Shown here: one piece after another, positions 33,393-40,676 of the stretch
Numbering within the stretch: the stretch's first letter is position 1
Layout of the letters: each line of letters begins with the position of its first letter
Source: Microvirga thermotolerans
GTDB taxonomy: Bacteria > Pseudomonadota > Alphaproteobacteria > Rhizobiales > Beijerinckiaceae
Direction of reading: 5' to 3'
NCBI RefSeq assembly: GCF_009363855.1
Contig: NZ_CP045423.1
Location: forward strand, 1,270,001-1,334,000
Length of the DNA stretch: 64,000 nt
The notes under the pieces: generated by a model
What the model saw: only the letters and a program-made list of their open reading frames with translations
Databases searched by the model: none
What the model was told of the DNA's origin: nothing
Made by a program: the position numbers and the translations under genes

Positions 33393-34592
<1,200 letters not shown>

Positions 34593-34744
34593 TCACCGGT
34601 TACGCAACTGACAATCCGGATCATGAGGCGTCAGGGTAAAGACGAAGTTTCCAAGCGCGAAAAAAGGCGTCCCGTTTCAGGTCGGCAATTTCTGCCTACG
34701 TATTGAATTCATTGGGTTTTTTCGTTAACGGCGATTAAGGTCGG

Positions 34745-35386
34745 TTACAGGTCGAGTAACCCTTGGCGCAGGGGCGCGAAACTCATCCGGTGGAACGGGC
34801 AGGGGCCCTCGCTCGCGAGCACCGAAAGATGCGTCTTCGTGCTGTAGCCGGCGTTCGTCGCGAATCCGTAGGCCGGGTAGCTGCCGTGGAGCCGGGCCAT
34901 CAGCCTGTCGCGGATCACCTTGGCGACGATGGAGGCGGCGGCGATGGAGGCGATCCGCGAATCGCCCTTCACGATGGCCTCCACGGAGCAGGGCAGGTCG
35001 GGCGGGTCGTTGCCGTCGACGAGGGCCATGTCGGGCGTGCAGGGCAGCGCCGCGAGCGCCCGGCACATGGCCTGGAGCGAGGCCCTGCGGATGTTGATGG
35101 CGTCGATCTCCGCGTGCGACACTGACGCGACGCCCACCTGCGCGGTTGCGAGGATCTCGGCGAAGAGGGCCTCGCGCTTCTGCGCCGTCAGCGCCTTCGA
35201 ATCGGCGAGTCCGGACGGGACGTTCTCCAGATCGAGCACCACCGCCGCCGCGACCACGGGCCCCGCCAGCGGCCCGCGCCCCACCTCGTCGAGCCCCGCG
35301 ATGCAGCGGAAGCCGGCGGCGCGGGCGGAAAGCTCGCGGTCGAGGCCGAGGCCCTTACCTTCGGATGTGCGAATCGCTGCGGTCAT
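34745..35386 (-). CDS. rnhB: Ribonuclease HII
   Basis: Removes ribonucleotides from DNA-RNA hybrids. The 213-residue protein shows GLDEVGRGPLAGPVVAAAV (D33, E34 catalytic), LADSKALTAQKREAL and the DGND(P)P segment, with IVAKVIRDRLM and the C-terminal active-site Asp/Glu region GFATNAGYSTKTH. ATG at 35386 precedes the family start. Confidence 0.96.
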   Translation of the reverse strand: MTAAIRTSEGKGLGLDRELSARAAGFRCIAGLDEVGRGPLAGPVVAAAVVLDLENVPSGLADSKALTAQKREALFAEILATAQVGVASVSHAEIDAINIRRASLQAMCRALAALPCTPDMALVDGNDPPDLPCSVEAIVKGDSRIASIAAASIVAKVIRDRLMARLHGSYPAYGFATNAGYSTKTHLSVLASEGPCPFHRMSFAPLRQGLLDL

Positions 35387-35484
35387 GACGGCATCAAAGC
35401 GGGAACGTCGTTTCTTTGACAGTCTGTCGAATGTCGCGTTGCGCTTGCTTGCGGTGCCATGCCTTCCGAAGGCCTGCGCTGCTT

Positions 35485-36666
35485 TCAGAACAACGACAGC
35501 TGCCCCGTATCCTTCGCCGGCGGGGTGAACAGGTCCGTGCGCAGCTTCCAGACGCGCTTGTTGAGGCCGAGCCGCTCGGCGGCGGTCTCGAACCGGCGGC
35601 CGATCATCCAGGCATAGGGGCCGATGCCGGTCTGGCGCGTGCCCCACCGGGCGTCGTAGTCCTTGCCGCCGCGCGCCTCCTGCAGGAGCGAGAACACGTG
35701 GTTGAGCTTGTCCGGGTAGTGCTCCACCAGCCAGTCGCGCATGAGGTCCTTGAGGTCGTGCGGCAGGCGCAGCAGCACGTAGCCCGCCTCCTGCGCGCCC
35801 GCCATGTGCGCCGCCTTCAGGATCGCCTCGATCTCGTGGTCGTTGATCGCCGGGATGATCGGCGCCACCAGCACGGCGACCGGAATGCCCGCCTCCGAGA
35901 GCCTGCGCACCGTCTCCAGCCGCTTGGCGGGGGAGGCGGCGCGGGGCTCCATCCGGCGGGCGAGCTTCGGGTCGAGGGTCGTGATCGAGATCGCCACCTT
36001 GGCGAGTTGCCGGTCGGCCATGCGGGCCAGGATGTCGATGTCGCGGGTCACGAGGGCGGACTTCGTGACGATCCCCACCGGATGGTTCGCCCGGTCCAGC
36101 ACCTCCAGGATGCCGCGGGTGATGCGGAAGCGGCGCTCCACCGGCTGATAGGGATCGGTGTTCGAGCCGAGCGCGATCACCTTCGGCTCGTAGGAGGGGG
36201 CGCGCAGCTCCTTCTCCAGAAGGTCCGGCGCACCGGGCTTCGCGAAGATCTTGGTCTCGAAGTCGAGCCCGGAGGACAGGCCCTGGTAGGCGTGGGTCGG
36301 CCGCGCGAAGCAATAGGCGCAGCCGTGCTCGCAGCCGCGATAGGGATTGATGGAGCGGTCGTAGCCGATGTCGGGCGAATCGTTTCGCGTGATGATCGTG
36401 CGCGGCTTCTCGACGATCACCTCGGTCGGCAGCGGGGGAAGCTCCTCCTCGAGGTCCCAGCCGTCGTCGAAGGCCTCGCGCCGGGCGGGCTCGTAGCGTC
36501 CCGTCGGGTTCGACACGGAGCCGCGCCCGCGCCGCCGCTCGCCCTCGACCCGGTAGGCCGGGTCCTCCATCCGGCGCCGTGCGGCTTCCGCGGCCTCGAT
36601 GGGGGAGCGGGAGACCGGCCGGGACAGGACGGGATCGCGGGGTGTTTCCCTGAAGCGGATGGTCAT
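35485..36666 (-). CDS. PA0069-family (SplB-like) radical SAM protein
   Basis: A 393-residue radical SAM protein with the CxxxCxxC cluster in GCEHGCAYCFARPTHAYQGL (C112, C116, C119), and DPYQPVERRFRITRGILEVL plus GLDFETKIFAKP, all hallmarks of the PA0069 family. These are related to spore photoproduct lyase, and activity is unknown, though DNA or nucleotide repair is a fair guess. ATG at 36666 is preferred over an upstream TTG. Two tandem GTTC-N7-GTTC boxes lie 27 nt upstream, suggesting LexA control. Confidence 0.9.
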   Translation of the reverse strand: MTIRFRETPRDPVLSRPVSRSPIEAAEAARRRMEDPAYRVEGERRRGRGSVSNPTGRYEPARREAFDDGWDLEEELPPLPTEVIVEKPRTIITRNDSPDIGYDRSINPYRGCEHGCAYCFARPTHAYQGLSSGLDFETKIFAKPGAPDLLEKELRAPSYEPKVIALGSNTDPYQPVERRFRITRGILEVLDRANHPVGIVTKSALVTRDIDILARMADRQLAKVAISITTLDPKLARRMEPRAASPAKRLETVRRLSEAGIPVAVLVAPIIPAINDHEIEAILKAAHMAGAQEAGYVLLRLPHDLKDLMRDWLVEHYPDKLNHVFSLLQEARGGKDYDARWGTRQTGIGPYAWMIGRRFETAAERLGLNKRVWKLRTDLFTPPAKDTGQLSLF

Positions 36667-36693
36667 GGCAGCCTCGAGCGAATCCGGCGATGA

Positions 36694-36726
36694 GAACGTT
36701 TTAGGAACAAAGAACAAAAATGGAAC
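36694..36726 (-). promoter_or_regulatory. Tandem LexA-type SOS boxes
   Basis: Read on the plus strand: GAAC (36694-36697), 7 nt, GAAC (36705-36708), 3 nt, GAAC (36712-36715), 7 nt, GAAC (36723-36726). Each N7 pair is the alphaproteobacterial LexA operator (GTTC-N7-GTTC on the other strand). The block begins 27 nt upstream of the radical SAM start codon and 55 nt before the rightward glycosyltransferase-like gene. Confidence 0.8.
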
Positions 36727-36781
36727 GAGATCAAGTCATCTTCGTGGCGACTCCGGCCGCGAAGGGGGATAGGGTGCCCGC

Positions 36782-37285
36782 ATGATCACGGTTCTCGTCC
36801 GCGCGCGGCGGGGCCCCGAGGCCCTGGCCGTCACCCTGAGCGCCCTCGTTCCCGCCGTTGCGGCGGGCCTGGTGGGCGATGCCGTCGTGCTGTCGGAGAG
36901 CCCGGACCGCGCCGTCGAGCGGGTGGCGGACGCCGCCGGGGCGACCCTGATCGCCGGGCATGGCGCTTCCTGGCGGGAGGGGGCGCGGGTCGCGCGCCAC
37001 GAATGGCTCCTGTGCCTCGACGACGGGGACGTGCCGGAGGAGGGATGGATCCGGGTTCTCGAACGGTTCGTGGCGCTCGGCCCGCGGGCGGGCCGGCTCG
37101 GGCGCCTGCGCCGCCGGCATCCGGGAATCCTGCCGGGTCTTCGCGACCTCGTGCGCGGGCTTGCTCGCCGGGGCGAGGTGCGGGCGGGCGACCTCGTCCA
37201 CAGGCGGGTCCTGCTGGAAGGGCAGCGCCCCGGCCGGCCCGTGCGGATCGCGGCCGCCGTCGCCCGCGATCCGGCCTTCGGGTGA
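36782..37285 (+). CDS. Short glycosyltransferase-like protein
   Basis: The 167-residue protein resembles the beginning of family 2 glycosyltransferases: ITVLVRARRGPEALAVTLSALVPAVAAGLVGDAVVLSES and a DDGDVPEEGW (DxD-like) motif at about residues 80-89. It lacks the longer C-terminal half of typical GT2 enzymes, so it may be inactive or a specialised small form. Homologues of this size occur in Methylobacterium-like genomes. It faces moaB (convergent, 7 nt apart). Confidence 0.72.
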   Translation: MITVLVRARRGPEALAVTLSALVPAVAAGLVGDAVVLSESPDRAVERVADAAGATLIAGHGASWREGARVARHEWLLCLDDGDVPEEGWIRVLERFVALGPRAGRLGRLRRRHPGILPGLRDLVRGLARRGEVRAGDLVHRRVLLEGQRPGRPVRIAAAVARDPAFG

Positions 37286-38996: not shown

Positions 38997-39845
38997 CTAC
39001 TCCCGCCCGTCGAGCGCCCGGCGCAGGGCCTGGAAATCCCGCCATCCGAGCCGCTTCTGGAGCGGCTGGCGCAGCAGATAGGCCGGGTGCAGGGTCGGCA
39101 GGGCCCTGATCTCGCGGCCTTCCTCGGTCCTGTAGGTGAACCAGCGGCCGCGGGTCCGCAGGATGCCGTCCTTGACGTCGAGGAGGTTCTGGGCCGCCGG
39201 TCCGCCGAGGCAGAGGAGGAATTCCGGCGCCGCAAGCTCGATCTGCCGCGCGATGAAGGGCTTGCAGATCGCCACCTCCTGCGGGGTCGGCGTGCGGTTG
39301 CCCGGCGGGCGCCAGGGCACGATGTTCGCGACATAGACCTGCGTGCGGTCGAGACCGATGGCGGCGAGCATCCGGTCGAGGAGCTGGCCCGAGCGGCCCA
39401 TGAACGGCTTGCCGATCCGGTCCTCGTCGGCTCCCGGTGCTTCGCCCACCAGCATCACGCGGCCCTGCGGGTTGCCGTCGGCGAAGGCGAGGTTCTTGGC
39501 GCTGAACTTCAGCGCGCAGCCCTCGAAGCCGGCGAGCAGGCCTTCCAGCTCCTCCAGGGACTGCGCGTGGCGCGCGAGCTCGCGGGCGAGATGGGCGGCG
39601 TCCTCCGGCGTCCCCGCGGCCGCCATGGGCAGGGGACGGGCGGGCGTGGCGGGCGGCGGCGCGGGAGTGCCGCTCTGCCGCTGGGCGGGGGCGCGGGCAT
39701 CGGACGGACGCTCCTGGGGCGGGGGCGAGGCCGCCTCCGCGAAGCGGTCGTGCGGGGCCTCGTCCAGGGCAAGATCCACCCCCGCCTCGACATGGAAGTC
39801 GAGGAGCGCCTGCAGGGCTTCGCGATCGGGGGGCATGTCCGCCAT
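38997..39845 (-). CDS. Uracil-DNA glycosylase, family-4-like but with incomplete Fe-S cysteine set
   Basis: The 282-residue protein has a Pro/Ala-rich, low-complexity N-terminal extension (residues 30-80) and a glycosylase core: GEAPGADEDRIGKPF (134-148), YVANIVPWRPPGNR (171-184) and LPTLHPAYLLRQP (249-261). Standard family 4 enzymes ligate a 4Fe-4S cluster with CxxC plus two later cysteines; here only C110 and C194 occupy those positions, while the NIVKC cysteine is Trp179. It therefore probably lacks the cluster. Function in base-excision repair is inferred. Confidence 0.88.
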   Translation of the reverse strand: MADMPPDREALQALLDFHVEAGVDLALDEAPHDRFAEAASPPPQERPSDARAPAQRQSGTPAPPPATPARPLPMAAAGTPEDAAHLARELARHAQSLEELEGLLAGFEGCALKFSAKNLAFADGNPQGRVMLVGEAPGADEDRIGKPFMGRSGQLLDRMLAAIGLDRTQVYVANIVPWRPPGNRTPTPQEVAICKPFIARQIELAAPEFLLCLGGPAAQNLLDVKDGILRTRGRWFTYRTEEGREIRALPTLHPAYLLRQPLQKRLGWRDFQALRRALDGRE

Positions 39846-39911: not shown

Positions 39912-40460
39912 TCAGGCCGTCAGGTCGAACAGGGTGGGGCTTTCGTCCCGCCGCGCGCCCTCGATGGCGAGGAGGCGGCGCTTGGTTCCGGCGCCGCCGT
40001 TCGCCGAGAAGCCGCCGAGCTTCCCGCCCGCCGCCACCACCCGGTGGCACGGCACGATGACGGGGAAGGGGTTGCGCCCGAGGGCCTGGCCGATGAGCCG
40101 CGGATTGCCGACCCGGAGCCTCGCGGCGATCTCGCCGTAGGTCATGACCCGGCCGGGCGGGATCGTGCGGGCGATCTCGTAGACGTGGCGGTGGAGGTCC
40201 GGCACCCCCTCCATGTCGAGCACGGCGCCGGAGAAGTCCCGGGCCTCGCCTTCGAGAAGGGCGACGGCATCGGCGACGACGCTCCGGAGCGTCGGCGGGG
40301 GAGGGGCCTCCGCCGCCCCGGGAAACCGGCGGGCCAGGCGGGCGCGGGTCCCGGCCGCGTCTCCCTCCGGCAGCTGGAAGCCCGCGATGCCTCTCCCGTT
40401 CCATGCCAGCCCGCAGGGGCCGATGGCCGTCTCGAAGATCGTGAAGGCGCTTGCCGTCAT
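39912..40460 (-). CDS. ogt: O6-alkylguanine-DNA alkyltransferase (Ogt-like)
   Basis: The 182-residue protein carries the acceptor site IVPCHRVV (C138), preceded by PPGRVMTYGEIAARLRVGNPRLIGQALGRNP and followed by GKLGGFSANGG..TKRRLLAIEGA, the full DNA-binding core of the family. It transfers alkyl groups from O6-alkylguanine to its own Cys. Start ATG 40460. It lies 66 nt after the uracil-DNA glycosylase gene start region on the same strand. Confidence 0.95.
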   Translation of the reverse strand: MTASAFTIFETAIGPCGLAWNGRGIAGFQLPEGDAAGTRARLARRFPGAAEAPPPPTLRSVVADAVALLEGEARDFSGAVLDMEGVPDLHRHVYEIARTIPPGRVMTYGEIAARLRVGNPRLIGQALGRNPFPVIVPCHRVVAAGGKLGGFSANGGAGTKRRLLAIEGARRDESPTLFDLTA

Positions 40461-40676
40461 GGTCGCTGCTCCCGTCCCGGCTGCGGTCCCGGTCCTCGGG
40501 ACCGGGATGCCGCCATCATGAACCGCCCGGCCGCGCCCGCAACCCGATTCCTGCCGCCCGGTCCGCCGGCGCAGGGCGCTTGCCCCTCCCCCTCCTTCCC
40601 GAAGATTGGGGGCCGCTGCACGCGGCACCTTCCAGCGGCGGCGCATCGGAGGTAGGAGACCTTCATAACGAAGAGG

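Follow-up and report, generated by a model that had tools for sequence, protein, structure and literature searches.

Tandem LexA-type boxes before a PA0069-family radical SAM gene of Microvirga thermotolerans, and a predicted fold resembling spore photoproduct lyase

Introduction

What do two closely spaced LexA-type boxes in the chromosome of the soil bacterium Microvirga thermotolerans control, and what might the product of the controlled gene do? We analyzed a 64,000-nucleotide stretch of this genome (contig NZ_CP045423.1, positions 1,270,001 to 1,334,000), referred to below as the window, in which the boxes lie between a radical SAM gene and a divergent reading frame. An initial annotation of the DNA had proposed that the radical SAM gene is an SOS gene, that its product is SplB-like and perhaps a DNA repair enzyme, and that the divergent gene could share the control. 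The features are as follows.

36712..36726, minus strand: LexA-type box 1, distal to the radical SAM gene, GTTCCATTTTTGTTC; top weight-matrix score in the window (23.9)
36694..36708, minus strand: LexA-type box 2, proximal to the radical SAM gene, GTTCCTAAAACGTTC; second-highest score in the window (21.6)
35485..36666, minus strand: PA0069-family radical SAM protein, 393 aa (NF033668); mean pLDDT of the structure model 91.4; nearest solved fold, spore photoproduct lyase (SPL)
34745..35386, minus strand: rnhB, encoding ribonuclease HII in the same direction, with a gap of 98 nt from the radical SAM stop codon (NF000595, 244.3 bits, cut-off 167; synteny)
33393..34586, minus strand: CcrM-like adenine methyltransferase with a RAMA domain, next co-directional gene (NF050803, 610.1 bits, under the cut-off of 830)
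36782..37285, plus strand: divergent gene, 167 aa, without a family match; the Sinorhizobium gene in the same place is annotated as a glycosyltransferase

Results

Two perfect boxes lie just upstream of the radical SAM gene

Both boxes are perfect GTTC-N7-GTTC direct repeats, separated by 3 nt and lying 27 nt from the ATG of the radical SAM gene (36666-36664); a pattern search and the coordinates confirmed the initial description on each of these points. The window holds four perfect matches to the pattern, against 1.17 expected, and 4 of 100 shuffled sequences reach four. We ranked the matches with a weight matrix derived from 162 boxes that precede the same gene at other, non-Microvirga loci. 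The two boxes took ranks 1 and 2 among 127,958 window positions, followed by an overlapping register (8.6) and then a score of 6.1, and neither of the other two perfect matches, at 37055 (within a coding frame) and 49423, came near the top of the list. Both boxes score within the training range, yet below the training median (31.2). A chance origin of the boxes is ruled out by the window and shuffle counts, the weight-matrix rank and the conservation across the class described below. A scan for sigma-70 promoters over 35300-36850 found none.

Within Microvirga the tandem arrangement is a variable extra: of 43 distinct loci, 16 carry a perfect pair, with a start-to-start spacing of 16 nt at 8 loci and 18 nt at the other 8, and 27 carry a single box. 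Where present, the second box may tighten repression.

The box is widely conserved before the gene in the Alphaproteobacteria

The initial annotation suggested scanning homologous loci for the boxes, and conservation proved extensive. Near loci carried a perfect upstream box in every case (30/30), a larger set that includes those 30 did so in 133/139, and 80 further loci, 75 of them readable, in 63/75. Across distinct class loci the box precedes the gene in 204/223, compared with 0–5/223 for ten control patterns (reversed, opposite orientation, spacing altered by one, and others). The 223 loci are what remains of 254 given after removal of 2 unreadable ones (L163 and L176) and 29 duplicates, with a low-scoring second copy (L222) left out; L163, read later, also has the box. 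These counts are not counts of independent events: many loci come from Microvirga (43 distinct) and related genera, and the later sets were picked at one or two per family.

The orientation of the box towards the gene is constant, with the opposite orientation found in 5/223, and in 75 of 198 class loci the box ends 23–25 nt before an ATG. Of the 19 class loci that lack an exact box, a one-mismatch site is present at 11 and absent from 8. Because lexA is present in all eight of those genomes, we regard them as true exceptions. The family itself is patchy, with matches above the cut-off in 131/241 class genomes and 84/199 genomes of the phylum.

Other operator types precede the same gene outside the class

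In the gamma and beta groups LexA recognizes the palindrome CTGT-N8-ACAG. At loci outside the class in the same phylum, this palindrome lies upstream of the gene in 22/31 (20/29, plus both of the later-read loci L291 and L296) and is absent from 9/31; control patterns of the same kind gave 0–1/29. The alpha-type box was found in none of the 31 (0/29 and 0/2). At one further locus outside the class (L285) the gene is preceded by TTAGTAATAATACTAA, which we take to resemble the Xanthomonas-type LexA site. An actinobacterial relative (L316) has CGAACTGCTGTTCT directly before its likely start, close to the Gram-positive LexA site, which a passage of PMC3323433 gives as GAAC-N4-GTTC. Up to four operator types may thus occur before genes of this group: the alpha direct repeat, the gamma/beta palindrome, a Xanthomonas-like palindrome (one locus) and a Gram-positive-type site (one locus). 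Several operators before one gene are hard to explain other than by selection for LexA control.

The same motif marks SOS genes of the same genome

The complete genome (3.82 Mb) contains 121 perfect GTTC-N7-GTTC matches, versus 43 for the reversed pattern. A perfect box lies about 60 nt upstream of lexA (match at 2029270-2029971) and about 135 nt upstream of recA (1490963-1491928). The weight matrix scored the recA sites at 23.1 and 18.7 and the lexA sites low, at 7.3 and 11.5, the latter having one mismatch. Boxes also precede imuA (35 nt), a UdgX/TIGR03915 gene (29 nt), an RmuC-like gene (58 nt; a weak family match) and, twice, genes for DNA polymerase III alpha. A comparison of ImuA co-occurrence over the class genomes was dropped, since the ImuA model matched 231/241 of them and seems to hit RecA as well. 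Of 20 proteins scanned beside boxes in this genome, 14 had no family at E 1e-10 or better; some of these are probably wrong frames in GC-rich DNA. Two matches were set aside, a DUF1190 match in the reading frame on the far side of the recA box and a peptide deformylase match on the far side of the RmuC box. LexA-type boxes in tandem or in larger number (L228-L246) were also seen in this genome, both close to DNA polymerase III alpha and clustered around 963-970 kb.

An operator near the start codon, an operator before the orthologues and the motif at lexA and recA, the sequence features expected of a member of the alphaproteobacterial LexA regulon, were all found. The conservation of the box in the class, and of another operator outside it, therefore makes it a nearly certain prediction that LexA controls the radical SAM gene. 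The proposal that this is an SOS gene is strongly supported, at the level of sequence, by that conservation and by the same motif at repair genes of the genome.

A multicopy element with a LexA-type box lies elsewhere in Microvirga genomes

Outside the window we observed a dispersed element, present in nine copies of 91–100% identity in this genome (near 547421, 598525, 861373, 1197905, 1555045, 1904195, 2374625, 2851218 and 3325054 of contig G000:C1). It has a LexA-type box abutting a promoter-like sequence (TTGACA...TATATC), followed by a GC-rich segment with an invariant core. The element occurs in 13 of 26 genomes of relatives, this one included, with up to 24 copies each; 12 of the 13 are among the 16 Microvirga genomes. 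In 20 of 20 copies fetched from nine other Microvirga species (L348-L367) the box is perfect and in a fixed place with a varying spacer, in a sample biased towards better matches to a query that contains the box (three copies matched only past the start of the query). The outer stem covaries, with changes on both sides in 9 of 21 pairs; there were 28 such cells versus 8.1 in shuffles, none of 500 shuffles being as high. A single copy folds no better than shuffles, and an Rfam search with the element returned no fitting family. The element may be an SOS-induced multicopy small RNA, and it looks more novel than the finding of boxes before the radical SAM gene.

The product belongs to the PA0069 family and is predicted to fold like SPL

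The 393-residue protein matches NF033668 (rSAM_PA0069) at 565.8 bits, against a cut-off of 360, over the whole model (1-348 of 348), and so belongs to that family. The next-best NCBIfam family, NF038135 (the Rv2578c family), scores 222.2 bits, under its cut-off of 430. The closest named homologues, from Microvirga rosea and M. puerhi, are 91% identical. A CX3CX2C motif at residues 112-119 holds the only cysteines of the protein and is invariant in 74 family sequences. Copies in phages were scarce: 13 of 50,697 records match weakly, none over 80% of the query.

We predicted the structure from an alignment of 74 of about 275 translated family members. The top PDB matches of the model are all SPL (Foldseek E 2.4e-10 to 1.8e-8), with Z scores of 18.8–19.5 over 265–274 residues; the next entry is NifB, at 14.8. 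Judged from the first and last aligned residues, the SPL alignments begin at model residue 36 and most others at about 84–104. On the predicted model, then, the fold appears SPL-like. Kinship with SPL is hardly detectable by sequence alone. With the NCBIfam model for SPL, whose cut-off is 400 bits, the score is 18.1 (MoaA gives 18.7); searching the PDB with a sequence profile retrieved no SPL entry with an E value of 10 or less; and when profiles were compared with those of SPL-like proteins, the alignment was confined to residues 199-312 (E 6.8e-6, probability 84.6%).

The family has no conserved fourth cysteine and mostly lacks the relay tyrosine of SPL

In B. subtilis SPL, Cys141 is the hydrogen donor and Tyr99 a relay, and C141A is inactive in spores, according to a passage of PMC3742179. 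Comparison of PDB 4fhc with an SPL-like protein from another genus of the same family (L323) gives the SPL motif C-x-[TS]-D, and PA0069-family proteins mostly have [TSA]-N-T-D at residues 168-171. We inferred the donor position, 168, from this motif because neither alignment settles it; the small mixed alignment does not place the SPL cysteine without gaps. At that position cysteine occurs in 0/252 distinct sequences, the residues being T, S, A, I, G, V, M or P; four loci were not read in this test, one of which (L114) has a cysteine two residues on. The position of Tyr99 is occupied by Phe in 182/252 sequences, the window protein included, and by Tyr in 70/252.

Independently of any positional match, the family lacks a conserved fourth cysteine: beyond the cluster motif no column has Cys in more than 23 of 74 sequences, and 75/252 sequences have no cysteine after that motif at all. 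The window protein thus has the CX3CX2C motif of SPL and neither the fourth cysteine (Cys141) nor the relay tyrosine (Tyr99). Three SPL-like genes that keep the cysteine (L323-L325, from that other genus) have no LexA box within 300 nt (0/3). We consider it very probable that the PA0069-family protein is not an SPL in mechanism. The description "SplB-like" therefore survives for the predicted fold, whose nearest relative is SPL, and probably fails for the mechanism, the catalytic cysteine not being conserved.

The constant partner of the box is the radical SAM gene

In the window (33393-36666) and at related loci the gene order is radical SAM, rnhB, ccrM. Among 80 named loci, mostly from Microvirga and its relatives, rnhB is co-directional downstream in 69, ccrM is present in 64, the divergent gene in 59 and moaB lies upstream in 63; among 109 loci of the class set, which have shorter flanks, rnhB is downstream in 44 and the divergent gene present in 19. 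Outside the class none of these four genes was found beside the radical SAM gene (0/31), and we found no other constant neighbor there, carbonic anhydrase being the only family to appear twice among 59 reading frames scanned. We saw no evidence that the CcrM-like gene shares control with the radical SAM gene. A few kilobases off in the window, on the same strand, lie genes for a family 4 uracil-DNA glycosylase (38997-39845) and an Ogt-type methyltransferase (39912-40646), and the pattern search of the window placed no perfect box near them. On a plasmid of Legionella adelaidensis (L315, 1299-4047), a PA0069-family gene is divergent from a gene for a PolX-type DNA polymerase/exonuclease.

Two neighbors of the radical SAM gene have to be weighed as the gene that the boxes are for. 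The divergent gene at 36782 shares with it the 115-nt intergenic stretch in which the boxes lie, 55 nt from its own ATG, and it is divergent at 30/30 near loci. The distance from the box, over 89 loci, nevertheless has a standard deviation of 44.5 to the divergent gene and 16.6 to the radical SAM gene, and at 90 of the 109 class-set loci no homologue was found next to the radical SAM gene, while the box is kept in 204/223. That the boxes serve this gene is hardly credible, and the suggestion that it shares the control is not supported: the box persists where this neighbor is absent, and the gene is a poor candidate, rnhB being a better one in some lineages. An operon meant for rnhB, whose product would remove ribonucleotides left by SOS polymerases, would suit its frequent position downstream, and the gap between the two genes is at most 30 nt in 12/133 loci. 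The gap is 98 nt here, however, with a median of 174 nt, and outside the class an operator is kept where rnhB is never adjacent; we regard this explanation, too, as very improbable. Short gaps at some loci do make co-transcription of the radical SAM gene and rnhB possible in some lineages. In families with such gaps the LexA box could drive rnhB too; in some lineages rnhB may come under joint control as a by-product.

Discussion

With LexA control predicted for the radical SAM gene, what its product may do is a matter of weighing its fold against its residues. A true spore photoproduct lyase ("splB"), providing photoreactivation under SOS, was proposed for the alpha- and betaproteobacterial homologues by a 2012 comparative paper (PMC3323433, in the passages that treat them), and SPL is indeed the nearest solved fold. 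Against it stand the donor cysteine and relay tyrosine that are not kept, the absence of a conserved fourth cysteine column, the low score of the SPL family model and the lack of a LexA box before the three SPL-like genes that do keep the cysteine. Because the family has neither a conserved fourth cysteine nor a cysteine at the donor position, the published photoreactivation reading is doubtful, and we judge it improbable for this gene. A less remote alternative, although still unlikely, is that SOS induces a radical SAM enzyme whose target is RNA, protein or a metabolite, for example slowing growth or adjusting translation during damage. The radical SAM core is common to RNA-, peptide- and cofactor-modifying enzymes, which match the model at Z 13–15, but SPL ranks well above them, and within the class the gene often sits beside rnhB and ccrM, both of which act on nucleic acid.

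The explanation that we favor, with moderate confidence, is a LexA-controlled enzyme of SPL fold that acts on a DNA lesion by way of another donor or substrate. From their motif, position and conservation, the boxes would be LexA operators. Bound there, probably as two dimers, LexA would stop the radical SAM gene from being transcribed while the cell is undamaged. DNA damage would activate RecA, LexA would cleave itself, and the gene would be turned on. Its product would be a stand-alone PA0069-family enzyme with a predicted SPL-type fold, binding one [4Fe-4S] cluster and SAM, as suggested by the CX3CX2C motif, and would most likely reverse or process a DNA lesion by 5'-deoxyadenosyl-radical chemistry. 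Because the donor cysteine of SPL is absent, the hydrogen donor or the substrate would be unlike that of SPL. Action on DNA, which we hold to be somewhat probable, is suggested by the predicted fold and the regulon only. The initial idea of a possible DNA repair enzyme is thus plausible in light of the SPL-like predicted fold, while identity with SPL is made doubtful by the unconserved catalytic cysteine; a putative SOS-induced repair enzyme that uses a different substrate or hydrogen donor would suit the findings better than SPL. More tentatively still, the PA0069/Rv2578c group may be a very widespread SOS enzyme with an undescribed DNA-repair reaction, carried out on an SPL scaffold without the cysteine donor and placed under up to four types of LexA operator. 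PA0069 itself is presumably on the SOS list of P. aeruginosa, and Rv2578c on that of M. tuberculosis.

Provided that its link to SOS is as close as the operators suggest, the gene is one of a small number of widespread SOS genes without an assigned biochemical function. Calling it "photolyase SplB" conceals this gap: the residues on which SPL catalysis depends are missing.

The regulation itself is not new, and the novelty is lower than the initial annotation assumed. Passages of several papers report related cases: LexA/SOS control of alpha- and betaproteobacterial "splB" was published in 2012 (PMC3323433); PMC8565304 describes SplB (COG1533) as SOS-regulated in several species, Bacteroidetes included, and cites P. 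aeruginosa (Cirz 2006), Verrucomicrobia and others; PMC7739468 places a radical SAM protein within the SOS core of Gram-positive bacteria and Balneolaeota; PMC9380542 gives LexA ChIP and mitomycin data for the Streptomyces venezuelae radical SAM gene vnz_31145; PMC3765255 ties SplB-like genes to SOS operons; and PMC12924846 reports a Streptomyces Rv2578c-family protein that is 17.6% identical to B. subtilis SplB. We infer that the "splB" of these SOS papers is the PA0069 family. In a literature search outside subscription journals we found no paper linking PA0069 to LexA or SOS, or Rv2578c to DNA damage. The PMC passages on SOS "splB" contain no residue test against SPL, and we make this statement for those passages and not for the printed literature.

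Among known systems, SPL (SplB of Bacillus, PDB 4fhc and others) resembles the window protein as its nearest solved fold and in the CX3CX2C motif, but the PA0069 family has no conserved equivalent of Cys141, mostly Phe in place of Tyr99, and a relation in sequence that can hardly be detected. The Rv2578c family of Actinomycetota (NF038135) is the next-best match, and one actinobacterial relative (L316) has the LexA site of Gram-positive type described above, although the window protein falls far under that family's cut-off. The published SOS "splB" and radical SAM systems share with this locus a LexA-type operator before a gene of the SplB kind, and in the alphaproteobacterial case the very same motif. 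Whereas those papers speak of a photolyase, or of a "radical SAM" protein only, the gene is here assigned to the PA0069 family, its box has been scored at 223 class loci, and the residues characteristic of SPL have been tested for and are missing.
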